NCBI GenBank assembly: GCA_017397545.1
Contig: JAFQIK010000008.1
Location: 1 to 40,545, forward strand
Source: Clostridia bacterium
Lineage (GTDB): Bacteria > Bacillota > Clostridia > TANB77 > CAG-508
Length of the DNA: 40,545 bases
Reading direction: 5' to 3'
Shown piece after piece: positions 11,117 through 34,459 of the stretch (position 1 is the first letter of the stretch; each line of letters begins with the position of its first letter). The translations under genes were made by a program, and so were the position numbers. The notes under the pieces were generated by a model. The model searched no databases and was not told the DNA's origin. It worked only from the letters and a program-made list of their open reading frames with translations.

Positions 11117-12967
11117 ATGGAATTCTACGAAAAAAAAGATAAAAAAGAAGTAATCAAACAAAATACTAATGAAGAAACAACTATAACAGAAGGAAAAGTA
11201 AATAAAAAGAAAAATAAAATACCAAAAAATAAAACATTAATTATATCTTTTGTATTTATAACTATAATGCTCATTATTTTGTTTTGTTGTACAATTTTTT
11301 CATTGTTAAATATAAATAATACAAAAATAATAAAAGGTGTTACTATAAATAAAATTAATATACAAGAGTTAACAAAAGAAGAAGCAAAAGAACTTATAAA
11401 ACAAGAAGTGGAAAAAGAATTAAATAAAGATATAAATATTAAATTAGATGAATTTGAGTATTCAATTAAGTTTAGCCAAATAGAATTAGAATATAAAATA
11501 GATGAGGCAATAGAAAATGCATATAAAGTTGGAAGAAGCGGAAATATATTTACTAATAATTTTAGTATTTTTAGTTCTATTATAAAAGGAAAAGATATAA
11601 CTCTAGAATATTCATATAACGAAGAGTTGATTAATTCTATAACTAAAGATATAGCGGCAAAAATACCAGGGGCAGTAGAAGAATCAAGTTATTATATAGA
11701 AGACAATAAACTATGTATATTAAAAGGAAAATCAGGAAACACAGTAAACCAAGAAAGACTAAAAGCGGAAATTTTAGATAAAATAGGTAAAAATGATAAT
11801 CAAGAAATTATATTAGAAATTTATGAGACAGAACCTAAACCAATAGATATAGAAAAAATATACAACGAAGTACATACAGAACCTAAGGATGCATATTATA
11901 CAAAAGAGCCTTTTGAAGTTTTTCCACATGTAAATGGAATAGATTTTGATATTGAAGCTGCAAAAGAAATGATAAAAGAAGATAAAGAAGAATATGAGAT
12001 AGCACTTATAATAACAGAACCAAAAGTAACTACTAACCAAATAGGAACAGAAGCATTTCCAGATTTAATCTCTTCGTTTAGTACAAGATATGATACAAGC
12101 AATGCTCCAAGAACTACAAATTTAAAATTAGCAATGCAAAAATTAAATGGATATGTAGTGAATCCAGGAGAAACTTTTTCGTATAACAAAGCTCTAGGGA
12201 AAAGGACAGTAGCTGCTGGATACAAAGAAGCAGGAGGATATGCTGGAGGTAGAGTGGTTCAAACACTTGCAGGAGGAATATGCCAAATATCATCAACATT
12301 ATATGATGCCGCTGTTTATGCTAATTTAGATATTGTAGAAAGACATAACCATATGTTTTTAGCAGGATATGTAGGGGCAGGAAAAGATGCTACAGTTGTA
12401 TATGGGTCATTAGATTTTAAATTTAAAAACACAAGAAAATATCCTATTATGATAAAAACATCAATAGGAGGAGGAACTGCAAAAATAAGTATATATGGAG
12501 TAAAAGAAGATGTAGAATATGATGTAGAAATTTCTACAACGATATTAAATTATATACCATATAAAGTTATATATGAAGATGATAATACATTAGCAGAAGG
12601 AAAAGAGAAAGTTGCGCAAGGTGGAATGAATGGATGCAGAAGTATTACATATAAAATATTAAGGTTAAATGGAAAAGAGATATCAAGAACAGTGCTTTCT
12701 TCAGACACATATGATCCTATGAATAAAATTATAAAAAGAGGACCAACAAAAACTGTGGAAACAAATACAACACCAGAAAATATTCAAACAAATACTAAGC
12801 CAGAAGAAACGCCAAGTGTAACACCAGAACAACCAGAAATTCCAGAAGATACGCCAAGTACAGAACCAATAACTCCAGAGGAAAAACCATCAGAAGAAGT
12901 ACCAGAACAAATACCGACAACACCAGAAGAAAATCCGGATGAAACGATACAAAATGTTGAAGGTTAG
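11117..12967 (+). CDS. VanW-family cell-surface protein
   Basis: 616 residues from ATG 11117 (CAGGAG 8 bases upstream, preferred over the ATG at 11099). A Lys-rich cytoplasmic tail is followed by one transmembrane helix near residues 42-65 (IISFVFITIMLIILFCCTIF). Two peptidoglycan-binding-like repeats follow, then the VanW domain (NPGETFSYNKALGKRTVAAG, GGYAGGRVVQTLAGGICQIS and STLYDAAVYANLDIVERHNH). A strand-rich domain and a Pro/Glu/Thr-rich tail (PEETPSVTPEQPEIPED) end it. VanW proteins are membrane-anchored envelope proteins of unsettled biochemistry, likely acting on peptidoglycan. All CGG trinucleotides in it straddle codons. Confidence 0.92.
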   Translation: MEFYEKKDKKEVIKQNTNEETTITEGKVNKKKNKIPKNKTLIISFVFITIMLIILFCCTIFSLLNINNTKIIKGVTINKINIQELTKEEAKELIKQEVEKELNKDINIKLDEFEYSIKFSQIELEYKIDEAIENAYKVGRSGNIFTNNFSIFSSIIKGKDITLEYSYNEELINSITKDIAAKIPGAVEESSYYIEDNKLCILKGKSGNTVNQERLKAEILDKIGKNDNQEIILEIYETEPKPIDIEKIYNEVHTEPKDAYYTKEPFEVFPHVNGIDFDIEAAKEMIKEDKEEYEIALIITEPKVTTNQIGTEAFPDLISSFSTRYDTSNAPRTTNLKLAMQKLNGYVVNPGETFSYNKALGKRTVAAGYKEAGGYAGGRVVQTLAGGICQISSTLYDAAVYANLDIVERHNHMFLAGYVGAGKDATVVYGSLDFKFKNTRKYPIMIKTSIGGGTAKISIYGVKEDVEYDVEISTTILNYIPYKVIYEDDNTLAEGKEKVAQGGMNGCRSITYKILRLNGKEISRTVLSSDTYDPMNKIIKRGPTKTVETNTTPENIQTNTKPEETPSVTPEQPEIPEDTPSTEPITPEEKPSEEVPEQIPTTPEENPDETIQNVEG

Positions 12968-12993
12968 TGGAAAATAAGGAATAATAGAATTTG

Positions 12994-13133
12994 TGTAGGG
13001 GCGACTAATAGTCGCCCGCCTCTTACAGAGACCTTTTTAAGAAAATTATTAATAGAAGTTTCTTTGAAGAGCGGGCGAACACAGTTCGCCCCTACAAACA
13101 CTTTACAAATTTTTTGTATTCTACTGAACTGTA
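12994..13133. repeat. Long GC-rich repeat with core in orientation A
   Basis: Core 12994-13096 from TGTAGGGGCGACTAATAGTC to ACAGTTCGCCCCTACA, with a non-palindromic middle. The right flank is AACACTTTACAAATTTTTTG then TATTCTACTGAACTGTA. The copy at 40237-40376 has the same flank but the reverse-complement core. Confidence 0.9.
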
Positions 13134-13164
13134 ACACTAAAAACAATATTTGTTATCTATTTGA

Positions 13165-16176: not shown

Positions 16177-17238
16177 TTAGCTTTCTGGATTATATTTTTT
16201 TCTGATTTCTTCTATCTTTTCATAATCATTATTTAATATATCCAAAAATGCATCTGCGCAATTTGGGTCAAATTGTGAACCTTTGCATTTTTCAATTTCT
16301 GCTTTAACAATATCTAAAGATAAGGAATCTCTGTAAGTTCTTCTAGATGTCATAGCATCAAATGCATCTGCTACTGCAGCAATTCTTGCTAGAAAAGGAA
16401 TTTCCAAACCTTTTAATTTTCCAGGATAACCGTTCCCATCAAAACGTTCATGATGATGTTTAACAACAGGAAGTACATTTTGAAAAATAGTAGCATTAGA
16501 CAATATGTGAGCACCGATTGTAGGGTGATTCTTAATTTCGGAATATTCATCATCTGTAAGTTTTGCGTTTTTTAATAAAATACTATCAGGAACACCTATT
16601 TTTCCAATGTCATGAAATAAACCACCTATTTTTAAAGTATTTATATCTTCGCTTGGAAGGTTTAGTTTTTGTCCAATTAATACAGAATATTCAGAAACTC
16701 TATCTGAATGACCTCTTGTATAGGTGTCTTTTGCTTCTACTGTAAAACGCAAAGTTTCTATACTTTCTAAATATGCTTTTTCCAATTTTTCATATGTATC
16801 TTTTAACTCATTATTTATTTTTCTAATTAAATTCATTTGAGATATTGCCTTTATTCCTGATTCTACAAGTAAAAGTAGTTGATCAAATTTATCACTTTTT
16901 TCGCAATACCCTTGAATATCTAATCTTCTAATTGTTTCTAGTGGTGGAGCTAAATCTTTATGACCAGTAAGAAGCAAAATATATAAGTCTTTATTAAATT
17001 TACGAATTTCTTCTACTACTTGGTCTCCATGAATAGGTGTCATTATAAAGTCAAGTAACATTAAATCAAAATGTTCTTGTTTTACTCTTTCTATTGCTTC
17101 CATAGGATCTGTTATTCCAACAAAATTATAACCAGCTTTATTTAAAAAAACTTTTAAAGAATCTAAAATTCCAGATTCATCATCAACAGCTATTATTTTG
17201 TATTGAGAATTTTCGTTAGAATATATGTTTTTTCTCAT
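16177..17238 (-). CDS. Response regulator with HD-GYP phosphodiesterase domain
   Basis: 353 residues from ATG 17238 (AAGGAG 8 bases upstream; the GTG at 17247 overlaps the site). The N-terminal receiver domain has acidic pair AVDDE, phospho-acceptor DLMLLDFIMTP and Thr/Lys positions LLLTGHKD and CEKSDKF. A short helical linker is followed by HD-GYP with GLFHDIGKIGVPD and HHERFDGNGYPG. Such proteins hydrolyse cyclic-di-GMP on phosphorylation. No kinase is adjacent, so it is an orphan regulator. Confidence 0.94.
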   Translation of the reverse strand: MRKNIYSNENSQYKIIAVDDESGILDSLKVFLNKAGYNFVGITDPMEAIERVKQEHFDLMLLDFIMTPIHGDQVVEEIRKFNKDLYILLLTGHKDLAPPLETIRRLDIQGYCEKSDKFDQLLLLVESGIKAISQMNLIRKINNELKDTYEKLEKAYLESIETLRFTVEAKDTYTRGHSDRVSEYSVLIGQKLNLPSEDINTLKIGGLFHDIGKIGVPDSILLKNAKLTDDEYSEIKNHPTIGAHILSNATIFQNVLPVVKHHHERFDGNGYPGKLKGLEIPFLARIAAVADAFDAMTSRRTYRDSLSLDIVKAEIEKCKGSQFDPNCADAFLDILNNDYEKIEEIRKKYNPES

Positions 17239-17269
17239 AAGCAACACTCCTTCTTGCTAATTCAACTAA

Positions 17270-19458: not shown

Positions 19459-21417
19459 ATGGGTTATAAAATAAAAAACACGTTAAAAAAAAGTAAAATG
19501 TTGTTTATAATAATTTCTATACTATGGATTTCATTATCCATAGTTTTAGCTTCGTCTATTACAGTAAGTAAAGTTGAGTCTACTGTTGGTCGGAGCATTT
19601 AATTTGGGAACATTTATAGAAAAGATATTTCTAAATATAGGAGATATAGGAATAAATTTAGATAAAATATTTAAGGCTGAGTATATTTCTACTTTTTGGA
19701 AAGTAGAAGGCTATTTAACAGTATTTTTAATAATTTGTGCAATGATTGGATTTATAAAATCTATGCCTAAAAATGAATATACAGACATAGAACATGGTTC
19801 AAGTGATTGGGCATCAGGAGAGCAATATAGTGTATTAAGTAAAAATAAAGGAATACTTCTTGCAGAAAAACATTATTTACCAGTAGATAAAAGAGGAAAC
19901 GTAAATGTTTTAGTTGTTGGACGGATCAGGATCTCGGAAAATCTGCATCATACGTTATTCCAAATGCTTATCAGCTTTTAGGGTCTTATGTTTTTACAGA
20001 TCCAAAAGGAGAATTGTATGATAAAACAGCCGGATATTTAAAAAGCAAAGGTTATGATATAAAAATATTTAACTTAGTTAACCCTAAAAACAGCGATGGA
20101 TATAATCCATTAATGCACATACAAAGTGAAATAGATGTTGACGTTATAGCAAATACAATAGTTAAAGGGCAGACTGAAGTACAAAATCAAGCAGATCCAT
20201 ATTGGGATGATATGGCAGAAATGCTATTAAAAGCATTGATATATTATTTACTAGCAACGAGGCCAGAGGAGGAACAAAATTTAGCAAGCTGTGCGGAGCT
20301 TGTTAGAGCTGCAAATAACAATGGAGCAGGAAATTTATTAACAGAACTGATGAATCAATTACCTTATGATCACCCTGCAAGAATGAACTATAAATCTATT
20401 GAAATTGCACCAGAAAAAACATATAGTTCTATACTTTCATCACTACAATCAAAACTTGGTAAGTTTGATTCAAAAGATATTGCAGAACTTACATCAACAA
20501 ACACTATAGATTTTGAAGAAATAGGAAGTAAAAAAACAGCAGTATTTGTAATTTCATCAGATACACATGCTGCATATGATTTTTTATTAACAATATTCTT
20601 TTCTCAAATGATACAAAGATTATATGACTTTGCAGATATAAAAGGTGGAGCACTTCCACAGCCTACATATTTTATATTGGACGAGTTTGCAAACATTGGT
20701 AAAATACCTGATTTTGATAAAAAAATATCAACATCAAGAAGTAGAAAAATTTCCTTTAGTGTCATCTTACAAAACTTAGACCAATTAGAAGCGGTTTATG
20801 AAAAATCTCATGAAACAATAATTGGTAACTGTGATACAACATTATTTTTAGGAAGTAACTCACAAAAAACAGTTGAATATTTCTCGAAAGAATTAGGAGA
20901 AAAAACAATAAACAGAGATAGCTGGTCTGTAAGTAAAGATAAACATATGTGGAGGCAAGGATACAATAAACAAGACCAAGTTATGGCAAGGGCACTAATG
21001 ACACCAGATGAATTAAGAAGATTAGACAATGATTTGTGTATTATATTTGAAAAAGGTATAAAACCGATAAAAGCACCAAAATATTATTACTTTAAATATG
21101 ATACAATAAAATTAGTAAATAGATTTGCGTGTAGCCACAATGATATAGACCCAATAGATAGAGGAAAATGGAGAAAATATAATCCATATAACCCTTATGT
21201 AGAAGAATCAGAAGAGAAAAAACAAGATACAAAAATTGAAAGTTTAGATGATTTATTTGATGATGACATATCAGATAATAAAATAGATGAGAGTGCTCCA
21301 GAATTACCACAAGACGATATAACTAATAATGAAAATGATGTATTATCATATGATGTACAAAAAGAATTAGAAGCAAAATTTGACGAATTATTTGGAGCAT
21401 TAGAAGATGATAATTAA
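19459..21417 (+). CDS. VirD4/TraG-family coupling ATPase, read through three CGG +1 frameshifts
   Basis: ATG 19459 follows AAGGTG. The N-terminus has two transmembrane helices (MLFIIISILWISLSIVLASS and YLTVFLIICAMIGFI). Frame 0 meets CGG at 19591 (VESTV-G-G-AFNLG), then 19922 and 19935 in Walker A (VLVVGGSGSGKSASYVIPNA). Three skipped bases return to frame 0, giving one 651-residue product; 1959 - 3 is divisible by 3. The rest is intact: FTDPKGELYDKT, NPLMHIQS, DPYWDDMAE, Walker B PTYFILDEFANIGKIPDFDK, ILQNLDQLE, and an acidic C-terminal tail. The family pumps DNA or protein substrates into type IV secretion channels. No relaxase is next to it. Confidence 0.9.
19591..19593 (+). other. CGG +1 recoding site, first of three in the VirD4-like gene
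   Basis: ACT GTT GGT CGG AGC ATT TAA stops three codons later. Skipping C gives GGT GGA GCA TTT AAT (GGAFN) and a long open frame. Confidence 0.87.
19922..19924 (+). other. CGG +1 recoding site, second of three (Walker A)
   Basis: GTT GTT GGA CGG ATC. Skipping C gives GGA GGA TCA GGA (GGSG), the start of the P-loop. Confidence 0.9.
19935..19937 (+). other. CGG +1 recoding site, third of three (Walker A)
   Basis: In the shifted frame TCA GGA TCT CGG AAA. Skipping C gives TCT GGA AAA TCT (SGKS). Only four codons separate it from the preceding site. Confidence 0.9.
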
Positions 21418-23697: not shown

Positions 23698-25515
23698 TTA
23701 CTCCAAAGGAATTTCAACAAAGAATGAAGTTCCTTTTCCTTTTTGAGTTTCATATTTTATATTTCCACTAAAGTGAGCTTTAATATTTGAATAAGACATA
23801 AATAACCCAAGACCAGTTCCGTTTTTACCTTTTGTTGTTACCATTTCTTTAAATAATTTATCTTGTACTTTAGCAGGTAACCCACCAGCAAAATCTTCTA
23901 TTTTAAAAATTATATTTTTACCTTCTTTATATATTGTAAAGTTTATATCCTCGTTTGTTTTTCCTTTAGCTTGGTAAGCTTGAATACTATTAGATATTAT
24001 ATTATTAATTACTTGAACCAAGCTATTAATATTTCCATTAACAACTGTAGAAGTATCGATATTTGCTTGAGTTTTTAAATTTATTAATGCATTTTTTAAT
24101 TCGTGTTTCATTAAAATATCTACATAATTTATAAGCTCTCTAACTGTAAAACCACTTGCAGTTTGCTCTGAAAATGCAACAGCTTGTCCTTTTATTGCTG
24201 TAATTACATCAGACATATATGATAAATGAGTTTTTGTTTTTTCTATCCATTCTTGCATTTCTTTTGCAATCTCATGATGATCTTCAGCAGTTACATCAGA
24301 GTCTTCTACACTTGAGTCATATTCTTTAATTAAATCAGATAAACCTTCTGCAGCACCGGCAATTGACATTATAGGAGTTTTTAAGTTATGTGCTATACCA
24401 CCAATCATTTGTCCAAGAGAAGCTAAACGTTCTTTTTCAACAAGCATATCCTGGTTATCCTTAATAGTTTGCATGTCTACAGTGTGCTGAGTAATATCTT
24501 TCAAAAGAATAAGTGTACCTAAAAAATTCCCCTTTGATTCTATGCGATTTATTTCAATATGGAAATATTTATTTATTTTATCAAAGTGCTTTTCTAGTAT
24601 TACTGTTTTGTTAGAATTTTCAACTTCTTTTAAAGATTTACTAAAAATATTGATATTAATGTTTAATTCTTTATAAGATGATAGTAAATCAAACAAATTC
24701 TTATTTCTTATATCAGTAGAAGTAGCTTCAAACATATTTAAAAAAGTTTGATTAAAATCTGTAATTGTATTATTTTCATTTATAACTATATATGCATCAG
24801 ATATTCTATCAACTACTTTTTGAAGAGCAATTGGTGCTACAGTTAGAAAATTGAATTTAAACATTGCCAAAGATATTAAGAATATTTCTAATGTAAATGA
24901 TATAGGCGTTATATATATAGATAAATCTAATATTCCAAAAGTTGATACAATGCTAGTTAATAATGAAATTAGGGCTCCAATACATATTAGCAAAGATTGT
25001 CTAGAAAAGAAACCAGAATTTCTTATTGTATAATAAAGAAGATATATTATACCAATTGCTATACAAGAGTATGAATATATTGAATGTATCAAAAAATATG
25101 GACCAAATATTGTTTCTCTAAAATTTGTAGAATATTGTTCATAGAATAGATGATGAAAATCATTTGTCCATAATATAAATAATGAGGTTAAAGGTATAAC
25201 AAATAAAAACAAATATTTAGTAGTAAATTTAATTTTTGTATTTACAAATATTAAAGACATTATTAATACGAATACCGGTAAAAAACAAGCAGATATATAT
25301 ATTAAATATTCAAAATATATAGGAGATATTTTCAAAGGAGTAGATAAATATATCTGTAAGAGTAGTCCTATAAACCATACGAATAGTAAACTAAAAAGTA
25401 TAATAAAAACTTTATGCAACTGGTTCTTTTTTTTGGCTTTTAGTAGGAAAATAAGCATTCCTATTACTATTATTAGTGCTATAAACAATAATATTGCATC
25501 TAAAGAGAAAAACAT
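23698..25515 (-). CDS. Sensor histidine kinase with 7-TM N-terminal domain and PAS
   Basis: 605 residues. Seven hydrophobic helices fill residues 1 to about 220 (LFIALIIVIGMLIFLLKAKK first), as in the histidine-kinase 7TM input domain. A PAS domain follows (VVDRISDAYIVINENNTITD). The phospho-acceptor is in MIGGIAHNLKTPIMSIAGAA near residue 374. The ATPase has N-box NIISNSIQAYQ, DFAGGLP and GTGLGLFMSYSN. The NRPS stop codon is 1 base upstream of its start, so it is translated from the NRPS message and may sense its product or the conditions for making it. No response regulator is adjacent. Confidence 0.93.
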   Translation of the reverse strand: MFFSLDAILLFIALIIVIGMLIFLLKAKKKNQLHKVFIILFSLLFVWFIGLLLQIYLSTPLKISPIYFEYLIYISACFLPVFVLIMSLIFVNTKIKFTTKYLFLFVIPLTSLFILWTNDFHHLFYEQYSTNFRETIFGPYFLIHSIYSYSCIAIGIIYLLYYTIRNSGFFSRQSLLICIGALISLLTSIVSTFGILDLSIYITPISFTLEIFLISLAMFKFNFLTVAPIALQKVVDRISDAYIVINENNTITDFNQTFLNMFEATSTDIRNKNLFDLLSSYKELNININIFSKSLKEVENSNKTVILEKHFDKINKYFHIEINRIESKGNFLGTLILLKDITQHTVDMQTIKDNQDMLVEKERLASLGQMIGGIAHNLKTPIMSIAGAAEGLSDLIKEYDSSVEDSDVTAEDHHEIAKEMQEWIEKTKTHLSYMSDVITAIKGQAVAFSEQTASGFTVRELINYVDILMKHELKNALINLKTQANIDTSTVVNGNINSLVQVINNIISNSIQAYQAKGKTNEDINFTIYKEGKNIIFKIEDFAGGLPAKVQDKLFKEMVTTKGKNGTGLGLFMSYSNIKAHFSGNIKYETQKGKGTSFFVEIPLE

Positions 25516-25516
25516 T

Positions 25517-28500
25517 CTACATCACCCTTTTAATAATTTCTATAAATTTTAAAATATAATCGTTACTTATTTTAGGCCATTTAAATTTAATTTTTTTAAG
25601 ATAACTGATTGTGAAATCAGACTTAATTATAATATCAGTTTTATAGGTTAAATGCAAATCTTTATCAAAATCATTTATAAAAACATTCAAATTATTATTT
25701 TCTTTTTTTCTGTTTATTAATGTTTTTACAATGTTTTTAAATTCAGATTCATCAACGAAGCTAAAGTTATAACCATGCTTATTTAACAATTTAAAAAGAG
25801 GTTTTAAATATACATGATTGTGATTAAATAAATGGAATATTCTATTTATTTTGTTACTATTGCATATTAATTTGATTATAGAATCACTTGCAGAGTCAAT
25901 CGGTGTAAATTCTAAATACAAATCTTCAATATAATTTGGAAGTTTTTTTATTTTAAGGAATGCTATAAGTCTATTGATGTATGCATTGTCAAGTATATTT
26001 TCCTGAAATTTTCCATCAGAAAGTCTAGGCATTAAATTACCCATCCTTAAAATATAAGCATCTAATCCAGCTTGGATTGCATGTAGAACAAGTTTTTCCG
26101 CTTCAAACTTACTCTTAATATATACATTATCCAAGTTTTGGCCTATATAAAGTGAAGATTCATCAAAAGTTTGGGTTCCTTCTATAGTTTGTATATTGCT
26201 TGAAGTGTCAAAGGCATTGCCAGATACACTTAGTGTAGATATTTGGTAAAATTTCTTGTTAAAAGTAGAACAGAAATTTATAATTTGTTTTACACTTTTA
26301 ACATTTGCATTATAAAAATCTTGATATTTTCCATAGTGATCTACTCTAGCTGCACTATTTATTACTATATCCACAGAATTAGCTAAATTGAATAAATCCT
26401 CTTGATTTAATCCAAATCCATCTTCAGTTATATTTCCTGTAACAACAAATATTCTTTTATTTATTAAGTCATTATATTTACTTCCAAAGTAATAATTTAG
26501 TTTATCATATAATTTGGTTTCTGCAGTAATACCAGGTTCTTTTCTTACAATGCAATAGACATTTCCAGATTGAGTTTTTAAGTAGGAATCCAGTATATGA
26601 GCACCTAAGAAACCTGTTGCACCAGTAAGTAATATATTATCTGGAGATGATTTATATATATGAGAATCATCTAAGTTATGGTTAAGAATATCAGAAAAAT
26701 CAAAAATATTATTATCTGATTCTTCTAACATAATTTCATCATCAGATTGATTTGATTCTATTTTTTTTGCTAGGCTTGAGATGGTTGGAAAATTAAATAT
26801 ATCTGAATATGTTGTTTTATCTGATATCTTTAATAGTTCTATATTTAAATTCATTGCTAATATAGAATCTCCACCTAATTCAAAAAAGTTATCATTAATT
26901 CCTATAGGTTTTGTGTTTAAAAGCTTTTCCCATATTGAAGCAATACGTATTTCTAAGTCTGTTTTAGGTGCTACATATTTTTCTTTACTTGAATTTAGTA
27001 TGCCATTAGGAATAGGAAGTGCTTTTTTATCTATTTTGCCATTAGGAGTATATGGAAATTCAGACATAGGTGTAAAATATGAAGGTACCATATATTTAGG
27101 CAATGAGGTAGATAAATGTCTTCTAAGTTCATTTATTTTTATTCTTTTATTTGAAATATAGTATGCAGCTATAAATTCTCTATTATCAATAGTTTGTTTT
27201 ATTACTTTTGCTTTTAAAATGTTAGGATATTCTAACATTTTTGCTTCAATTTCTCCAAGTTCAATTCTAAGTCCCCTAATTTTTACTTGATTATCAACTC
27301 TTTCAAGATAATAAATTTCTCCATTATCCAAAAACTTGCATAAATCACCAGTTTTGTACATTATTGTATTATCTATAAATAAATTTTTTATAAAACTTTT
27401 TTGAGTTAAATTTTCATTATTTACATATCCATAACCAACGCCATCACCACTAATATATAATTCACCAGGGATTCCAATTGGAGTAGGGTTCATAAACTTA
27501 TCTAAAATATACATTTGTGTATTATATAAAGGTTTACCTATATTAATATCTTTTTGATTAGTTACATCAGTTAAAGATGAAAATACAGTAGTTTCGCTAG
27601 GACCATATCCATTATATATCTTACTTATTCCTAAATCTTTTAATTTAGATAACAACTGATTTGGAAGAGGTTCACCTGCTAAAACAACATATTTAAGGTT
27701 TTTTAGGTAAGGACATTCTTCTATATTATCAACAAAAAATTGCATTCTAGATGGTGTCATTTGAAGTATTTGTATATCATGTTTTTGTAACATTTTGTTT
27801 AATTTAGAAGGTAGATGTTGTTCTTCTTCATTAGCAAGGATTACTTTTAATCCTTTTTGAAGAGAAATTAGTGTTTCAAATACAAATATATCAAAGCTTA
27901 TTGTAGTAATGGAAGCAATTGATTGATTAGTATTAGATTTTAAGTACTCTACATAGTTATTACAATAATTTGTTAAATTGTAAATAGAAATGTGTTTTAA
28001 TGCAACCCCTTTAGGCATACCAGTAGAACCTGAGGTATATATAATATATGACAAGTCATCTGGTTCATTAATGTTTTCTAAATTACTTTTATTAGAATTA
28101 TATGATTTATTATTTAACTCAACAAATAATTTGTTTTCAAAACTAACTTTATCTTCTAATTTTTTAAAAGTTAAAAGCAGTTTAGCATTACTATTAGAAA
28201 GCATATATTCTATTCTGTCTTGAGGATATTCTGGATCAATAGGAATGTAGCATGCCCCGCTTTTAAGTACAGCAAGAATAGAAACAATCATTTCTAAAGA
28301 ACGATTGACCATAATGCCAACAATATCATTTCTTCCAACACCATTATTTCTTAAGTAATATGCAAGGCTATTTGCTTTTTCATTTAATTCTTTATATGTT
28401 AGTTGCTGATTTTCAAAAACAATAGCAATATTATCAGGAGTTTTTTCGACTTGTTCTTCAAAAGCTTCAGTAATTGTTTTATCTTTTGGATAGTCTACTT

Positions 28501-31500
28501 TTGTATTGTTAAAATTATATAATATTTTGTTTTTTTCGTCATTTGATAGCATACAAATATCAGCTATTTTTATATCTATATTATTTAAAATAGCAGTTAA
28601 AATATTTATATAATGGTTTGATAAGTTTTTAATAAAACTTTCATCAAATAATTTAGTTGCATATTCAAATGATAAACTAAGTTTTTCATCATTTGGTACA
28701 ATTTCTAAAGATAAATCAAATTTAGAAATTTTTAAGTTTGGTATATAATACTCTGCATTAATTCCATTAAAAGAAACTGGTGAATAGCCGTTATTTTGAT
28801 AAATAAACATAGTATCAAATAAAGGGCTTCTGCTTGTATCACGTGTTAAATTTAATTTATTTACTAATTCATCGAAAGGATAGTTTTGATGCTTATAGCT
28901 TTCTAAACAAATATCTTTAATTTGATTTAAGAAAGTTTTAAATGATAAAGTACTATCAATAGTTGCTCTAAGTGGCAAGCTATTAACGAACATACCAACA
29001 ATGTTATAAAGCTCACTAGAATCTCTATTTACAATAGGAGTTCCAACAACAATATCTTCCTGAGAAGTATATCTTGAAAGTAAAATATAGTATGCAGATA
29101 AAAGAATCATGTAAGGAGTAATTCCTAAATTTTTAGCTAAAACATTTAATTTTTCTGTAGTTAATTTATCAATTTCTGAATAAACTTTATCCCCTTCAAA
29201 AGATTGAACAGCAGGTCTTGTTTTTGTAGGTAGGTTAAGGACAGGAACTTCTGATTTAAACTTATTTAACCAGTAATCTTCAGATTCTTTTAAATCTCCA
29301 TTATTTATTTTTGTGTTTTCCCATACAGCATAATCTTTATAATCTATTTTTAATGCTGGTAATTCTTCATCATTATATAATTTGCAAACATCATTAACTA
29401 AGATGGATAAAGAAGTTCCATCAGAAATAATATGATGCATATCTATCATAAGAAAAGCTTTTTCATTATCTAGTTTTACTATTTTTGCTCTAAATAAAGG
29501 AGCTTTAGACAAATCGAAAGGTTTTACAAATTCATTAAATACAGATTTAATTTGTTTTTCTTCTATAGCATTAGAGTCTGAACTTAATTTAAAGTTTAAA
29601 GAATCTTCAACTTTTTGTACAACTTTATTATCCTGTACTTCAAAATGTGTTCTTAAAGCAGAATGTCTTTGAAGTAATTTATTAAAGGCATTTTGTAATT
29701 TTGAAGTATTAGGCATTTTGTCTAAGATTAAACCACCAGAAATGTTGTATAAAGTAGAGCTTGGTCCTGCAATATTAGAAGCATAATATGTTCTTGTTTG
29801 TGCAGAAGAAGCAGCATAATATGAAGCTTTGTTTGCTTTATATATAGTATTATCAATATTATTACTATCTTTAGAATAAAGATAGTCAGATAAATCTTTA
29901 ATTACAGGATTTTCTAAAATATCTTTAACAAAAATTTGTACATTAAATTCACTATAAATTTTTGTACATAAATTTATAGCAGTTAAAGAATCTCCACCAA
30001 GTTCAAAGAAAGAATCTTCAATACTTATATTTTCAATATTTAGTAGCTCACTTAATAGATTTATTAATAATTCATCTGTGCTGTTTCTAGGTAAAAATAT
30101 CTCTTTATTGGGAATTTCAACATTTGGCATAGGTAGTTTTTTTCGATCAATTTTTCCATTAGGTGTATATGGAAAAGCATCAAGCTTAATGAAATATTGA
30201 GGTATCATATATAAAGGTAAAACTTTTGTTAAATGGTTTCTTATAGTGTTTATATCAATATTATCAGATGAAATAAAGTATGCACATAGAAATTCATGAT
30301 TATCATTTAAACAATTTTTTGTAACAATACATTTGTCTATTTTATCTAAAGATATTATTTTATTTTCAATTTCTTCCAATTCTATTCTATGTCCGTTAAC
30401 TTTTACTTGAAGATCGGTTCTTCCTAAATGAACTAAGTCTCCTGTGTCTGTGTAATATGCTAAATCTCCAGTATCATAAATTTTTCCGTTTACATATTTG
30501 TTGTCAATAAATTTTTGAGCAGTTAAAGATGTGTTGTTATAATATCCTGATGATACTCCATCTCCACCAATATATAGATTTCCAGGAGTAAAAATAGGAA
30601 GCATATTTTTGTTTTTATCAAATATGTAACATATAGTATTATAAATTGGTGTACCTATTGTTATATATGTAGAATTACTTAAGTTTTTTACTGTAGACCA
30701 TACAGTCGTTTCAGTTGGACCATAAACATTATATATATTAGCACTTGATAATGTTTTTAATTGTGTTAATAATAATTTTGGAAATGGCTCTCCGCCAACT
30801 AATATATCAGTAATGTTATTAAAGTAATCAAGGTTACTTGAATCAGAAATTAAAAATTGAAAACGAGAAGGTGTGGTCTGTATAATATTTACATCATTTT
30901 CTATACATAGTTTATTAAATAGACTTACGTTTGTTTGCTCCTTTTCGTTCGCAATTATAATTTTTAGGCCTTTTTGTAAAGGTAACAAAGACTCTAATAC
31001 AAAAATATCAAAGCTAATGGTAGTAACTGAAACTATTGTTTTATTGGCAGAGAAATTAATTATATCTGTCATACCTGCTATAAAATTGTTTACATTCTTA
31101 TGACTCAGCATAACCCCTTTAGGCATGCCAGTAGAACCAGAGGTATATATAATATATGATAAATCATCTGGTTCATTGATATTTTCTAAATTTTTTTTAT
31201 GAGAATTATATAATTCGTTATTTAATTCAACAAATAATTTATTTTCAAAATTAACTTTATAATCCAATTTTTTAAAAGTTAAAAGCATTTTAGCATTACT
31301 ATTAGAAAGCATATATTCTATTCTGTCTTGAGGATATTCAGGGTCTATTGGAATATAGCAAGCTCCACTCTTAAGAACCGCAAGAATAGAAACAATCATT
31401 TCTAAAGAACGATTGACCATAATACCAACAATATCACTTCTTCCAATACCATTATTTCTTAAGTAATATGCAAGGCTATTTGCTTTTTCGTTTAATTCTT

Positions 31501-32956
31501 TATATGTTAGTTGCTCATTTTCAAAAACAATTGCAACATTATCAGGAGTTTTTTCTACTTGTTCTTCAAAAGCTTCAGTTATTGTTTTATCTTTTGGGTA
31601 GTCTGCTTTTGTATTATTAAAATCATATAATATTTTGTTTAATTCATCAGGTGTAACTATTTCTATATCCTTTAATTTAATTTCGTTATTTTCTAAAATT
31701 TGATTAATTATATGTAAAAGTCTAGCATGAATTGAGCAAATATCATCTATTGTATATTTGCTTAGCAAATAATCATAAGCTATACTTAAACTACCTGTAT
31801 CATTCATATCATACAAGTGTATATTAATATCATCTGAAATATTGTTATTTCCAATCCATCTTGAATCATATAATACATCAGAAGATTGTTTATTACTTCT
31901 TACATTTTGATAAGAAATTAAAAGTTTATATAAATTAGGAATACTGCTATCTTTACTTCTTAAATCTTCTAATAAGTATTGATATGGATATTTTTGGTGT
32001 CTAAATATTTTTAAAAAATCTACTGAAATATTGGTTAAAAAATCTCCAAATAAATCTTCAGAATTTACAGATACCTTAAATGGAATTGTGCTTATATACA
32101 TACCAGTTGTTTGCTTTTCTTTAAAATTTCCTCGGTTTAATATAGGAGTACCAATTACAAATTCGTCAAGTCCTGATACTCTAGATAAATATATTGAAAG
32201 AACTCCCATAAAGAAATTAAATATAGAAGCTTTTTTTGTTTTACAAAATTCATTTATTAAATCTACAGTTTCTTTTGGAATAGTAAAAAGTTTTCTTTTT
32301 GCACTGCAGTTTATTTCTTTAGTTTCTTGTTTTACACTAGGAATTGTAGCTACTTCTGGAATAGTATCGAAAAGTTCATTCCAAAAAGTTTTATCTTTTT
32401 TAAATTTTTCACTATTCAAATATTCTTTTTCAGAATTTATATAGTCTATATATGAAGGGATAGGTTCATTTGATAATTCTTCATTTTTTATTAAAGTTTC
32501 ATAATATCCCATAATTTCGTTAACAACAAGACCAGCTGTCCAAGCATCAGCAATTAAATGGTGTGCATTTATAACAAAACCACCATTTCCATTTGGAAAT
32601 TCAAATAATTTGAAATCAAATAAAAAATTTTCTAATGTGTTAAAAACAGTATCACACATTTTCCTTTCTAAATTTTTAACATCTTTATCAGTTTGAACTG
32701 ATATTTTTTCTATGTTAAATTCAGTAAAAGTATCAACATACTGCATAACAGTACCATCTTTTACTGTAAATTTTAGTCTAAAACTATCATTATTTTTAAC
32801 AAATAGATTTATTGCTTTTTTTAAAGCATCAAAATCTACATTTTGTGAAACAATTACAGTACCTGTAATGTTTTCGATCGACGTCCCTTTATAAAATTGC
32901 TCCGTTAGCCATATTGATTTTTGGGGATTTGTTAAAGCGTACATGTTTTTTGACAT
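25517..32956 (-). CDS. Two-module NRPS with terminal reductase (C-A-T-C-A-T-R)
   Basis: 2479 residues. C1 has HHLIADAW near 132; A1 has YTSGSTGMPKGV near 605, YGPTETT and NGKIDRK; T1 has LGGDS with Ser about 990. C2 has HHIISDG near 1172; A2 has YTSGSTGMPKGV near 1642; T2 has LGGDS with Ser about 2031. A Rossmann thioester reductase starts TGATGFLG near 2107. By alignment to the GrsA pocket, A1 reads D-I-L-Q-L-G-V-V-W, very close to the published Gly code; A2 reads D-I-F-Q-V-A-G-V-F, unassigned. Reductive release gives an aldehyde that may cyclise to a pyrazinone. An N-terminal C domain with no upstream module suggests N-acylation. Related gut Clostridia NRPSs make protease-inhibiting peptide aldehydes. 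Confidence 0.95.
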   Translation of the reverse strand: MSKNMYALTNPQKSIWLTEQFYKGTSIENITGTVIVSQNVDFDALKKAINLFVKNNDSFRLKFTVKDGTVMQYVDTFTEFNIEKISVQTDKDVKNLERKMCDTVFNTLENFLFDFKLFEFPNGNGGFVINAHHLIADAWTAGLVVNEIMGYYETLIKNEELSNEPIPSYIDYINSEKEYLNSEKFKKDKTFWNELFDTIPEVATIPSVKQETKEINCSAKRKLFTIPKETVDLINEFCKTKKASIFNFFMGVLSIYLSRVSGLDEFVIGTPILNRGNFKEKQTTGMYISTIPFKVSVNSEDLFGDFLTNISVDFLKIFRHQKYPYQYLLEDLRSKDSSIPNLYKLLISYQNVRSNKQSSDVLYDSRWIGNNNISDDINIHLYDMNDTGSLSIAYDYLLSKYTIDDICSIHARLLHIINQILENNEIKLKDIEIVTPDELNKILYDFNNTKADYPKDKTITEAFEEQVEKTPDNVAIVFENEQLTYKELNEKANSLAYYLRNNGIGRSDIVGIMVNRSLEMIVSILAVLKSGACYIPIDPEYPQDRIEYMLSNSNAKMLLTFKKLDYKVNFENKLFVELNNELYNSHKKNLENINEPDDLSYIIYTSGSTGMPKGVMLSHKNVNNFIAGMTDIINFSANKTIVSVTTISFDIFVLESLLPLQKGLKIIIANEKEQTNVSLFNKLCIENDVNIIQTTPSRFQFLISDSSNLDYFNNITDILVGGEPFPKLLLTQLKTLSSANIYNVYGPTETTVWSTVKNLSNSTYITIGTPIYNTICYIFDKNKNMLPIFTPGNLYIGGDGVSSGYYNNTSLTAQKFIDNKYVNGKIYDTGDLAYYTDTGDLVHLGRTDLQVKVNGHRIELEEIENKIISLDKIDKCIVTKNCLNDNHEFLCAYFISSDNIDINTIRNHLTKVLPLYMIPQYFIKLDAFPYTPNGKIDRKKLPMPNVEIPNKEIFLPRNSTDELLINLLSELLNIENISIEDSFFELGGDSLTAINLCTKIYSEFNVQIFVKDILENPVIKDLSDYLYSKDSNNIDNTIYKANKASYYAASSAQTRTYYASNIAGPSSTLYNISGGLILDKMPNTSKLQNAFNKLLQRHSALRTHFEVQDNKVVQKVEDSLNFKLSSDSNAIEEKQIKSVFNEFVKPFDLSKAPLFRAKIVKLDNEKAFLMIDMHHIISDGTSLSILVNDVCKLYNDEELPALKIDYKDYAVWENTKINNGDLKESEDYWLNKFKSEVPVLNLPTKTRPAVQSFEGDKVYSEIDKLTTEKLNVLAKNLGITPYMILLSAYYILLSRYTSQEDIVVGTPIVNRDSSELYNIVGMFVNSLPLRATIDSTLSFKTFLNQIKDICLESYKHQNYPFDELVNKLNLTRDTSRSPLFDTMFIYQNNGYSPVSFNGINAEYYIPNLKISKFDLSLEIVPNDEKLSLSFEYATKLFDESFIKNLSNHYINILTAILNNIDIKIADICMLSNDEKNKILYNFNNTKVDYPKDKTITEAFEEQVEKTPDNIAIVFENQQLTYKELNEKANSLAYYLRNNGVGRNDIVGIMVNRSLEMIVSILAVLKSGACYIPIDPEYPQDRIEYMLSNSNAKLLLTFKKLEDKVSFENKLFVELNNKSYNSNKSNLENINEPDDLSYIIYTSGSTGMPKGVALKHISIYNLTNYCNNYVEYLKSNTNQSIASITTISFDIFVFETLISLQKGLKVILANEEEQHLPSKLNKMLQKHDIQILQMTPSRMQFFVDNIEECPYLKNLKYVVLAGEPLPNQLLSKLKDLGISKIYNGYGPSETTVFSSLTDVTNQKDINIGKPLYNTQMYILDKFMNPTPIGIPGELYISGDGVGYGYVNNENLTQKSFIKNLFIDNTIMYKTGDLCKFLDNGEIYYLERVDNQVKIRGLRIELGEIEAKMLEYPNILKAKVIKQTIDNREFIAAYYISNKRIKINELRRHLSTSLPKYMVPSYFTPMSEFPYTPNGKIDKKALPIPNGILNSSKEKYVAPKTDLEIRIASIWEKLLNTKPIGINDNFFELGGDSILAMNLNIELLKISDKTTYSDIFNFPTISSLAKKIESNQSDDEIMLEESDNNIFDFSDILNHNLDDSHIYKSSPDNILLTGATGFLGAHILDSYLKTQSGNVYCIVRKEPGITAETKLYDKLNYYFGSKYNDLINKRIFVVTGNITEDGFGLNQEDLFNLANSVDIVINSAARVDHYGKYQDFYNANVKSVKQIINFCSTFNKKFYQISTLSVSGNAFDTSSNIQTIEGTQTFDESSLYIGQNLDNVYIKSKFEAEKLVLHAIQAGLDAYILRMGNLMPRLSDGKFQENILDNAYINRLIAFLKIKKLPNYIEDLYLEFTPIDSASDSIIKLICNSNKINRIFHLFNHNHVYLKPLFKLLNKHGYNFSFVDESEFKNIVKTLINRKKENNNLNVFINDFDKDLHLTYKTDIIIKSDFTISYLKKIKFKWPKISNDYILKFIEIIKRVM

Positions 32957-33231: not shown

Positions 33232-33322
33232 GACGTTTGCAATTAATTCAATCATACAAATTACAATTTATCAGACTAAAACCACAAAAAATGGAAATGC
33301 TAATATAGAGGTGGATTTTAAT

Positions 33323-34459
33323 ATGTACGAATATAAAAAAAGACCTAGTAAGCTAAAAAAATTTTTAATATATTTTATACTAATTATAATTATATCAGCT
33401 TTAAGTATATTTATTTATGATATGTATGTAAATATTGATGTATATTCTGCAGAACAAAATAATGAAAATGATAATGCTGTAAGATTATCAAATATAGAAC
33501 AGTTAAATAATAAAGAAGAACAAGATATTACTAAAACATTAGAAAATACTATTAAATGCGTAGTTGGAATTTCTAAAATAAAAAACACAGGAAGTTCTAT
33601 ATTTTTAAATAATAGTACTTCTGAATTAGGATTAGGAACAGGAATGATTGTATCAGAAAATGGATATATACTTACAAACTGGCATGTTGCAGGAGATAAA
33701 TATAGTAATTGCTATGTTACTTTAGAAAATGGTAATATATATAATGGAAATGTAGTTTGGGCAGATTCTGATTTAGATTTAGCTATTATAAAAATATCTG
33801 TTTCAAATTTAAATCATATCACTTTAGGAGATTCTGATAATATAAAAATAGGGGAACAAGCATATGCAATTGGAAATCCAATAGGAGTTGAGTTTCAAAG
33901 GACGGTAACCTCAGGAATTATTAGTGGAATAGATAGAACCATAAGAATTGAAGAAGATGGTAACGTAGCATATATGGAAGATTTAATACAAACAGATGCT
34001 ACAATTAATCCAGGAAATAGTGGGGGGCCTCTTATAAATTCAAAAGGAGAAGTTATAGGAATAAATTCAGTAAAAATAACAGAAGCCGAAGGTATTGGAT
34101 TTGCTGTACCAATTAATATTATAAAACCTGTAATAGAAAGCTTTTCCGTTAATGGAAATTTCGAAGAAGCATACCTTGGGATTTTTGCTTATGATAGAAA
34201 TATTATACCATATTTAGATTCTAGTATAGAGTTTAATACAGGGGTTTATGTGGCACAAATATCAACAGACGGACCAAGTAAATCTTCTACTTTAAAAGTG
34301 GGAGATATTATAACAAAAATAGATGATATATCTATAAATAAAATGAGTGAGTTAAGAAATTATATATATACAAAAAAAGTAGGAGATGAAGTAGAGTTAA
34401 CAATATTAAGAAACAAGAGGGAAATAATTATAAATATAAAATTAGGTAGAAAAAATTAA
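33323..34459 (+). CDS. HtrA/DegP-type membrane-anchored serine protease
   Basis: 378 residues from ATG 33323 (AGAGGTGG 8 bases upstream; the GTG at 33311 lies in that site). One transmembrane helix near the N-terminus (IYFILIIIISALSIFIYD) anchors it. The trypsin-like domain shows the triad in TNWHVAG (His), DSDLDLAII (Asp) and INPGNSGGPL (Ser). A single C-terminal PDZ domain begins AYLGIFAYD and includes LKVGDIITKIDDI. HtrA proteases degrade or refold damaged exported proteins. It is monocistronic. Confidence 0.94.
   Translation: MYEYKKRPSKLKKFLIYFILIIIISALSIFIYDMYVNIDVYSAEQNNENDNAVRLSNIEQLNNKEEQDITKTLENTIKCVVGISKIKNTGSSIFLNNSTSELGLGTGMIVSENGYILTNWHVAGDKYSNCYVTLENGNIYNGNVVWADSDLDLAIIKISVSNLNHITLGDSDNIKIGEQAYAIGNPIGVEFQRTVTSGIISGIDRTIRIEEDGNVAYMEDLIQTDATINPGNSGGPLINSKGEVIGINSVKITEAEGIGFAVPINIIKPVIESFSVNGNFEEAYLGIFAYDRNIIPYLDSSIEFNTGVYVAQISTDGPSKSSTLKVGDIITKIDDISINKMSELRNYIYTKKVGDEVELTILRNKREIIINIKLGRKN

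Follow-up and report, generated by a model that had tools for sequence, protein, structure and literature searches.

In pheromone two-component systems such as ComX-ComP and Agr, the signal maker is encoded beside a membrane kinase, and a variable sensor is joined to a conserved kinase core and regulator. These features are shared by an operon on a 40,545-nucleotide stretch of DNA (the window) from a Clostridia bacterium (assembly GCA_017397545.1, contig JAFQIK010000008.1, positions 1 to 40,545, forward strand), in which a nonribosomal peptide synthetase (NRPS) predicted to release a peptide aldehyde is followed by a histidine kinase with a seven-transmembrane (7TM) sensor. Unlike in ComX-ComP and Agr, the signal would be nonribosomal, and the regulator ends in an HD-GYP domain, not a DNA-binding domain.

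As the preliminary description of this sequence had stated, related aldehyde-making gut enzymes are already known. A gut family of NRPSs with the domain order C-A-T-C-A-T-R (C, condensation; A, adenylation; T, carrier; R, reductase) makes peptide aldehydes or pyrazinones and is attributed to Guo 2017 Cell by citing papers (PMC12282076, PMC12327764, PMC10979478). The published gut peptide-aldehyde NRPSs and ruminopeptin of Ruminococcus bromii (PMC12327764) have the domain order (PMC10979478), a gut host, a terminal reductase and a predicted aldehyde in common with the window NRPS. The extracts of the citing literature mention no signalling operon for these clusters, unlike the window operon.

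Three other systems are comparable. The aureusimine synthetase AusA of staphylococci also has two modules and R and an aldehyde intermediate, but it is an A-T-C-A-T-R enzyme without starter C domain and has its own phosphopantetheinyl transferase (PPTase), AusB (PMC12153313), whereas the window genome shows only an AcpS-like protein. The coralinone genes corA/corB of myxobacteria resemble the window locus in a pyrazinone-type product, a signalling-like role and a Deg-type neighbour; they differ in that the enzyme is a hybrid of NRPS and polyketide synthase from another phylum, and the term 'histidine kinase' is absent from the text (PMC10979478). Klebsiella oxytoca makes a leupeptin-derived pyrazinone termed an autoinducer, a similar case of a signal derived from a protease inhibitor, but its read-out is iron acquisition and 'histidine kinase' is again absent from the text (PMC11480411). 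No description of an NRPS-kinase-HD-GYP operon of gut Clostridia was found in the open-licence PMC literature, which is no proof of its absence from print. The aldehyde NRPSs of gut bacteria and the leupeptin-derived pyrazinone autoinducer being known, what is new here is the kinase operon with its matched sensor. The aldehyde or a derivative is probably a polymorphic self-signal of small-genome gut Clostridia, its last residue read by the 7TM kinase, with inhibition of host proteases as a secondary effect.

The NRPS-kinase operon

The NRPS and the kinase comprise the following features.

25517..32956, minus strand: NRPS, C-A-T-C-A-T-R, 2479 amino acids (open reading frame (ORF) call and Pfam; ATG start, intact)
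31607..32944, minus strand: C1, starter-type condensation domain, about residues 5-450, motif HHLIADAW (motif and tree)
30107..31579, minus strand: A1, about residues 460-950, code DILQLGVVWK, Gly-like (Pfam and pocket alignment)
29879..30070, minus strand: T1, residues 963-1026, GGDS at 987 (Pfam and motif)
28520..29821, minus strand: C2, LCL-like, residues 1046-1479, motif HHIISDGT (Pfam and tree)
27035..28462, minus strand: A2, residues 1499-1974, code DIFQVAGVFK, unassigned (Pfam and pocket alignment)
26762..26947, minus strand: T2, about residues 2004-2065, GGDS at 2028 (Pfam and motif)
25880..26629, minus strand: R, NAD_binding_4 terminal reductase, residues 2110-2359; the protein extends to 2479 (Pfam)
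23698..25515, minus strand: histidine kinase, HisKA_7TM-PAS-HisKA-HATPase_c, 605 amino acids, proposed cognate receptor (Pfam; one base downstream of the NRPS)
24832..25491, minus strand: 7TM sensor domain, kinase residues 9-228 (Pfam)

The pairing of the two genes is nearly constant among relatives. Of the 77 loci retrieved with the NRPS as query, there are 53 in which the kinase (E ≤ 1e-40) is encoded downstream in the same orientation, which makes 54 loci with the window included. The NRPS match extends beyond residue 2400 in 56 loci (window included), and 54 of these have the downstream kinase. The 24 loci without it comprise two that reach the end of the reductase (L065 and L066), three truncated family fragments (L023, L053 and L070) and 19 that are unmatched beyond residue 2143. 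Conversely, the kinase query is positive in 99 of 287 genomes of the order (E ≤ 1e-110; 103 places), and an NRPS lies directly upstream in 78 of the 80 places fetched out of the 103. The two exceptions are L183, at which the contig begins close by, and L171, which has a second kinase between the two genes. The two linkage counts, 54 loci from the NRPS query and 78/80 places from the kinase query, come from overlapping genomes.

The gap between NRPS and kinase is at most 20 bp in 111 of 132 loci. By NRPS size, the 132 loci with a 7TM kinase divide into 104 two-module enzymes, ten scored as having more modules (some barely longer), seven one-module enzymes and 11 that are cut. Module number was therefore rejected as a strict determinant of sensor type, given the seven one-module NRPSs. 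The arrangement of a synthase beside a membrane kinase matches the pheromone two-component layout, in which the NRPS product would take the role of the signal. As a side observation, tandem 7TM kinases follow one NRPS at L012 (17389-21064) and L056 (9046-12840), possibly two receptors for one product. At L171 (530-11127) a compact row of genes encodes HtrA, a one-module C-A-T-R NRPS, a first kinase whose HAMP match is weak and falls below the Pfam cut-off, a 7TM kinase and a response regulator.

Two further genes are usually found nearby, those of a REC-HD-GYP response regulator and an HtrA/Deg-type protease. Across 37 genomes (the window genome and 36 relatives), a close kinase (E ≤ 1e-60) is present in 31 of 32 NRPS-bearing and one of five NRPS-free genomes, a close response regulator (E ≤ 1e-130, one split gene counted) in 26 of 32 and none of five, and a close HtrA (E ≤ 1e-80) in 28 of 32 and none of five; the Fisher values on these counts are uncorrected for phylogeny. 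The NRPS-free exception, G035, has a kinase of 32-36% identity with no NRPS nearby.

Sensor exchange in relatives without the 7TM kinase

The response regulator is found in 191 of the 287 genomes (E ≤ 1e-130) and the 7TM kinase in 99 (E ≤ 1e-110), so the idea that the regulator is confined to 7TM-kinase genomes was rejected on these counts, which were made at different cut-offs. Twenty regulator places were picked from genomes without a 7TM-kinase match. In 18, an NRPS lies beside a kinase whose core is shared (59-65% identity) but whose sensor is of another type, with no 7TM-sensor match at E ≤ 1e-5. Where the NRPS is complete, it is a one-module enzyme (13 single ORFs of 1408-1450 amino acids and one split); at the other four loci the fetched stretch or contig ends inside the NRPS. 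The HtrA gene is divergent in 14 of the 18.

Covariation of the sensor with the A2 code

The covariation set derives from the 132 adjacent NRPS-kinase loci, of which 114 pass the minimum lengths of 560 amino acids for the kinase and 1150 amino acids for the NRPS end; 94 of these are non-redundant (less than 95% kinase identity), and 93 remain after removal of one gapped code. Correlation with the A2 pocket code was measured by partial Mantel statistics with the kinase CA (catalytic and ATP-binding) domain controlled. The p values lie at or near the permutation floor and phylogeny is only partly modelled; correlations as low as 0.108 and 0.134 reach the same floor, so it is the effect size that counts.

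On the kinase side, residues 6-95 correlate with the A2 code at 0.566, residues 101-228 at 0.292, PAS at 0.134 and the DHp (dimerization and histidine phosphotransfer) domain at 0.05. On the NRPS side the correlation is 0.396 for the N-terminal half of A2, 0.576 for the A2 subdomain, 0.56 for T2, and 0.468, 0.386 and 0.328 for three parts of R from 5' to 3'. The A1 code served as a control: in the 70 of 93 loci that have a single-ORF two-module NRPS with ungapped code, kinase residues 6-95 correlate at 0.611 with the A2 code and at 0.108 with the A1 code. For the A2 code, earlier and smaller runs agree with this (n = 25 and n = 46). In the n = 25 run the median identity is 0.44 in the sensor, as against 0.83 in REC, 0.77 in HD-GYP and 0.67 in the kinase core. 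The PAS domain behaves differently. It correlated at 0.34 and 0.21 with the A1 code and at about 0 and 0.19 with the A2 code in the n = 25 and n = 46 runs, which reading by the receptor does not explain, and weakly with both codes in the n = 70 run (0.153 and 0.154).

The nearest relatives provide a second comparison. Among 46 independent nearest pairs, each used once, 13 have the same code, 29 have different codes and four fall between. Identity in residues 6-95 is 0.69 in same-code and 0.37 in different-code pairs. Because the CA domain, too, is more similar in same-code than in different-code pairs (0.84 vs 0.76), residuals were tested, and the difference in residues 6-95 persists (p = 0.0001). 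Covariation of a sensor with the code that would set signal specificity is expected of a signal/receptor pheromone system and is seen here, with the caveat that the two are linked.

The first way to read this covariation without a receptor is that A2, T2, R and the start of the kinase gene are swapped as one recombining block, which would leave the sensor-code correlation without functional meaning. The A2 subdomain and T2 equal the sensor in their correlation and R reaches 0.42, and exchange of an A2-T-R-sensor block thus explains part of the effect. With other parts controlled, T2 and the A2 subdomain persist, and PAS also differs in the independent pairs. As the whole explanation, however, block exchange is unlikely. 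The sliding profile is non-monotonic: across R it fluctuates in the range 0.23-0.51 and ends there with three steps at 0.23-0.24, before a renewed rise to 0.44-0.55 over kinase residues 21-61 and a subsequent fall. Residues 6-95 exceed the C-terminal part of the reductase by a bootstrap difference of 0.237 (2.5% bound 0.122), and they retain 0.27 with R, T2, the A2 parts, the rest of the transmembrane (TM) part and PAS controlled. In a second control set, in which all other parts are controlled, the whole TM part holds 0.194, T2 0.205 and the A2 subdomain 0.247, while R keeps only 0.043. The correlation is in part block exchange and in part a sensor-specific excess.

An equally improbable alternative keeps the host as the target: the aldehyde would hit host cathepsins, and the kinase would induce the NRPS on a host or gut cue without binding the product. 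Gut NRP clusters are indeed reported to make cathepsin-inhibiting peptide aldehydes (PMC12282076) and dipeptide aldehydes (PMC12327764), and kinases are not rare in biosynthetic gene clusters (204 of 2694 in one survey, PMC10663231). A sensor of a host cue, however, is not expected to vary with the A2 pocket of the adjoining NRPS, and neither the near-constant NRPS-kinase linkage nor the sensor exchange in one-module relatives would be expected.

Location of the covarying residues

One segment of the kinase holds most of the covarying positions.

25288..25395, minus strand: kinase residues 41-76, comprising the second half of TM2, the outer loop and the first part of TM3 (16 of the 20 top mutual-information positions with A2 class)

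The top 12 positions are 47, 76, 69, 51, 58, 72, 59, 116, 200, 70, 48 and 73. An AlphaFold model of the kinase has a mean pLDDT of 77 and a pTM of 0.48, with ten-residue blocks of residues 1-220 at 75-94. The modelled helices span residues 2-26, 32-58, 65-92, 99-116, 139-167, 172-192 and 202-220. Since there are seven helices and the kinase part is in the cytosol, the N terminus would lie outside. In this model the top covarying residues would mostly be found where TM2 and TM3 end on the outer side, in the loop between them and in nearby loops. The outer set (119 of 220 residues) holds 18 of the 20 top positions; the hypergeometric p of 0.00044 is only indicative, as the set was drawn from the model helix ends after the positions were seen and the positions cluster.

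A profile search with the kinase against PDB sequences gave 31 best stretches, all of which begin at profile position 235 or later and none in the 7TM part. A whole-model fold search was uninformative as a guide to the 7TM part, the 50 matches shown being kinases, phytochromes and similar proteins.

Domain architecture and predicted product of the synthetase

Pfam assigns to the NRPS two Condensation (E = 1.3e-197), two AMP-binding (1.2e-163), two PP-binding (5e-24) and one NAD_binding_4 (4.8e-45) domains, the E-values applying to the whole protein. By eye, the translation contains the reductase motifs GATGFLG and Y-x-x-x-K. Pfam and motif reading together confirm the C-A-T-C-A-T-R order with both T serines, both C motifs and the reductase, as proposed in the preliminary description, and the domain order supports its assignment as a dimodular aldehyde-type enzyme. 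Alignment to GrsA/PheA returns the pocket codes DILQLGVVWK (A1) and DIFQVAGVFK (A2), in agreement with those read earlier, when A1 was placed near the Gly code and A2 was left unassigned.

As a control of the pocket method, a Bacillus paralicheniformis locus gives DAQDLGVVDK, DAFMLGMVFK, DAWFLGNVVK, DAFWIGGTFK, DLTKVGHIGK and DAWFLGNVVK, in keeping with the lichenysin residues, Gln/Leu/Leu/Val/Asp/Leu. A1 agrees at 8 of 10 positions with the Gly pocket code DILQLGLIWK; the second A domain of LgrA, which activates Gly, shows a different code by eye. Activation of Gly by A1 is plausible on this pocket comparison. About ten code classes recur at either A position among the 54 loci, and the pockets have thus been shuffled in evolution, as the same classes occur at both positions. 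A comparison of A1 with A2 of the window NRPS in 40-column steps gives 72-100% identity between residue 431 and about residue 627, and 22-60% thereafter. The high identity in the first part of the domain suggests that the two domains recently exchanged sequence within the gene while their pocket parts stayed separate.

In a tree of C domains, all 48 domains labelled as family C1 fall in one clade (support 0.986), together with the first C domain of lichenysin synthetase, three other N-terminal C domains and one Lachnospiraceae domain. The other seven members of the clade are each the first C domain of their own protein, and two of the seven are family proteins. One reference is of known function (lichenysin); the other labels were assigned from motif and position. 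Of 60 domains labelled as family C2, 57 group with three family fragments in a clade of their own (support 0.935), which lies outside the starter group. The C1 motif reads D[AS] in 42 of 44 cases and DG in two, and the C2 and later motifs read DG in 44 of 44. C1 as an LCL domain was rejected on its grouping with N-terminal starter domains; the tree thus bears out the starter domain proposed at the outset, for which clustering with LCL domains would have been the opposite outcome. The genome (1.15 Mb, 51 contigs, 94.5% complete) shows no condensation domain beyond C1 and C2 of this NRPS. Both belong to one gene, so an upstream module elsewhere, the other outcome that would have spoken against a starter domain, was rejected for the 94.5% of the genome covered.

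The first residue is probably capped with an acyl group through this domain. An AMP-binding ligase of about 563-592 amino acids is divergent from the NRPS in five of the 54 loci (L015, L025, L031, L044 and L048), and a similar one is found at L198, L200, L201, L205, L212 and L213; two of the ligases were checked with Pfam. The ligase is possibly the supplier of the acyl group. Because a pyrazinone requires a free amine, one product cannot be both N-acylated and a pyrazinone. C-A-T-C-A-T-R enzymes are stated to specify pyrazinones in one paper (PMC10979478).

The sole PF01648 (PPTase-family) match in the genome is AcpS-like, with 125 amino acids (G000:C10; L088:1477-1854, minus strand), and no Sfp-type PPTase was seen in the 94.5% covered. 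The carrier domains would thus depend on this protein, unless another PPTase sits in the missing part. L088 also contains a GC-rich, repeat-like stretch.

NRPS query matches are found in all 37 genomes; those in G002, G007, G022, G024 and G035 are to A-domain parts only. The full-length relatives are mainly from metagenome-assembled genomes of uncultured Clostridia, several with sample names such as Sheep_Ileum and Lapin in the record titles. Going by these titles, related enzymes occur in gut Clostridia. Elsewhere in the window, recurring strings in ORF translations (GANCVRP...LLVAPT; VAAHGDP) at 12964-13146 (minus), 36198-36674 (minus), near 39600 (plus) and at 40202-40423 (plus) point to dispersed repeats, one of which, by eye, runs into the final part of a short DeoC-like ORF (36067-36534).

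The response regulator and the HtrA-like protease

The two partner genes flank the operon at different distances.

16177..17247, minus strand: REC-HD-GYP response regulator, 356 amino acids, proposed partner, 6.45 kb beyond the kinase (Pfam)
33311..34459, plus strand: HtrA/Deg-type protease (Trypsin_2 and PDZ), divergent from the NRPS (Pfam)

In 38 of the 54 loci the regulator lies downstream of the kinase in the same orientation, directly after it in many relatives; it is elsewhere in three and was not seen in 13. In the window and its nearest relatives, TraG- and DnaJ-like genes lie between kinase and regulator. The former encodes a VirD4/TraG-type coupling protein (20014-21417, plus strand, in the window), and further conjugation-like ORFs are seen by eye in the first 6 kb of the window. 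The motif HD[IV]GK is present in 38 of 38 and HHE..DG.GYP in 37 of 38 full-length regulators, which predicts an HD-GYP phosphodiesterase. The window genome contains one GGDEF match above the cut-off and one below, which makes an involvement of cyclic di-GMP possible. Membership of the pheromone systems would need a transcription factor. Because the neighbouring regulator is a REC-HD-GYP protein, the operon is classed as working like a pheromone two-component system and not as a member.

The HtrA-like protease is divergent upstream of the NRPS in 40 of the 54 loci, lies downstream in three and was not seen in 11. A second HtrA, of about 34-46% identity, is present in 34 of the 37 genomes. The protease beside the NRPS appears to be an accessory, whether as target, antagonist or effector. 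Such a dedicated paralogue could also be the hub of an envelope feedback, in which the aldehyde inhibits the cell's own HtrA and the kinase senses the envelope state with no cell-cell signalling; in the coralinone cluster, the Deg-type neighbour corB antagonises the effect of the corA product (PMC10979478). The protease, however, was not seen nearby in those 11 loci (in 7 of them the upstream DNA available is shorter than 5 kb), and 4 of the 32 NRPS-bearing genomes lack its close form while the kinase is nearly always present; we regard this explanation as improbable. Just as doubtful is a sporulation kinase that passes its phosphate to Spo0A and not to the HD-GYP regulator, the product gating sporulation, for although the genome has an orphan regulator that is Spo0A-like by eye, most members of families f1, f3 and f4 (but not of f2 and f5) among the 37 genomes keep the HD-GYP regulator within one contig stretch with NRPS and kinase, as do 18 of the 20 sampled places.

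Proposed mechanism and significance

A mechanism can be proposed from the domains, the linkage and the covariation. The NRPS would load a Gly-like first residue through A1 and then a second residue through A2, the starter C domain probably capping the first with an acyl group, and R would release a dipeptide aldehyde. The aldehyde or a derivative would exit the cell, presumably by export, and be read by the 7TM domain of the next-encoded kinase, the outer TM2/TM3 side of which may recognise mainly the C-terminal, A2-derived residue. The kinase would then phosphorylate the REC-HD-GYP regulator and thereby shift the level of a cyclic dinucleotide.

Several observations weigh against this signalling scheme. 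On the kinase side, the Lachnospiraceae loci L065 and L066 (same coordinates, probably one species) encode a C-A-T-C-A-T-R enzyme without a 7TM kinase. On the output side, the regulator is not nearby in 13 of the 54 loci, 11 of which have more than 6 kb of room; in the window it is 6.45 kb from the kinase, behind opposite-strand genes; it is more widespread than the 7TM kinase (191 vs 99 of 287 genomes at the cut-offs given); and at two of the 20 sampled places (L197, a 5.5-kb contig, and L214, 17 kb) it occurs without NRPS or kinase. The second, orphan regulator of the genome is a possible kinase partner. In the covariation, the A2 subdomain (0.576) and T2 (0.56) track the A2 code as strongly as the sensor does and also persist under full controls (0.247 and 0.205, TM part 0.194), and residues 101-228 (p = 0.0021) and PAS (p = 0.0025) differ in nearest pairs as well. 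Finally, the reported C-A-T-C-A-T-R pyrazinones (PMC10979478) speak against obligatory N-acylation.

The conserved kinase, regulator and HtrA, which the preliminary description had not noticed, move the likely primary role of the product from host-directed protease inhibitor to signal, and peptide aldehydes may first of all be bacterial signals. A wider proposal, which we advance tentatively and hold slightly more doubtful than probable, is that NRPS aldehydes form a polymorphic signalling language across an order of small-genome gut Clostridia, each operon having its own synthetase, a 7TM sensor matched to the last residue of the product, a dedicated HtrA and an output through HD-GYP. Where the synthetase has one module, the same kinase core would mostly bear a second type of sensor, and cathepsin inhibition would be a by-effect.

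With a receptor gene beside that of the enzyme, and the two matched in sequence, gut aldehydes would gain a primary role that is directly testable. If true, each operon supplies both a ligand maker and a read-out, and because about ten pocket codes are shuffled between the two positions, the operons would also yield natural ligand-receptor pairs for studies of specificity.

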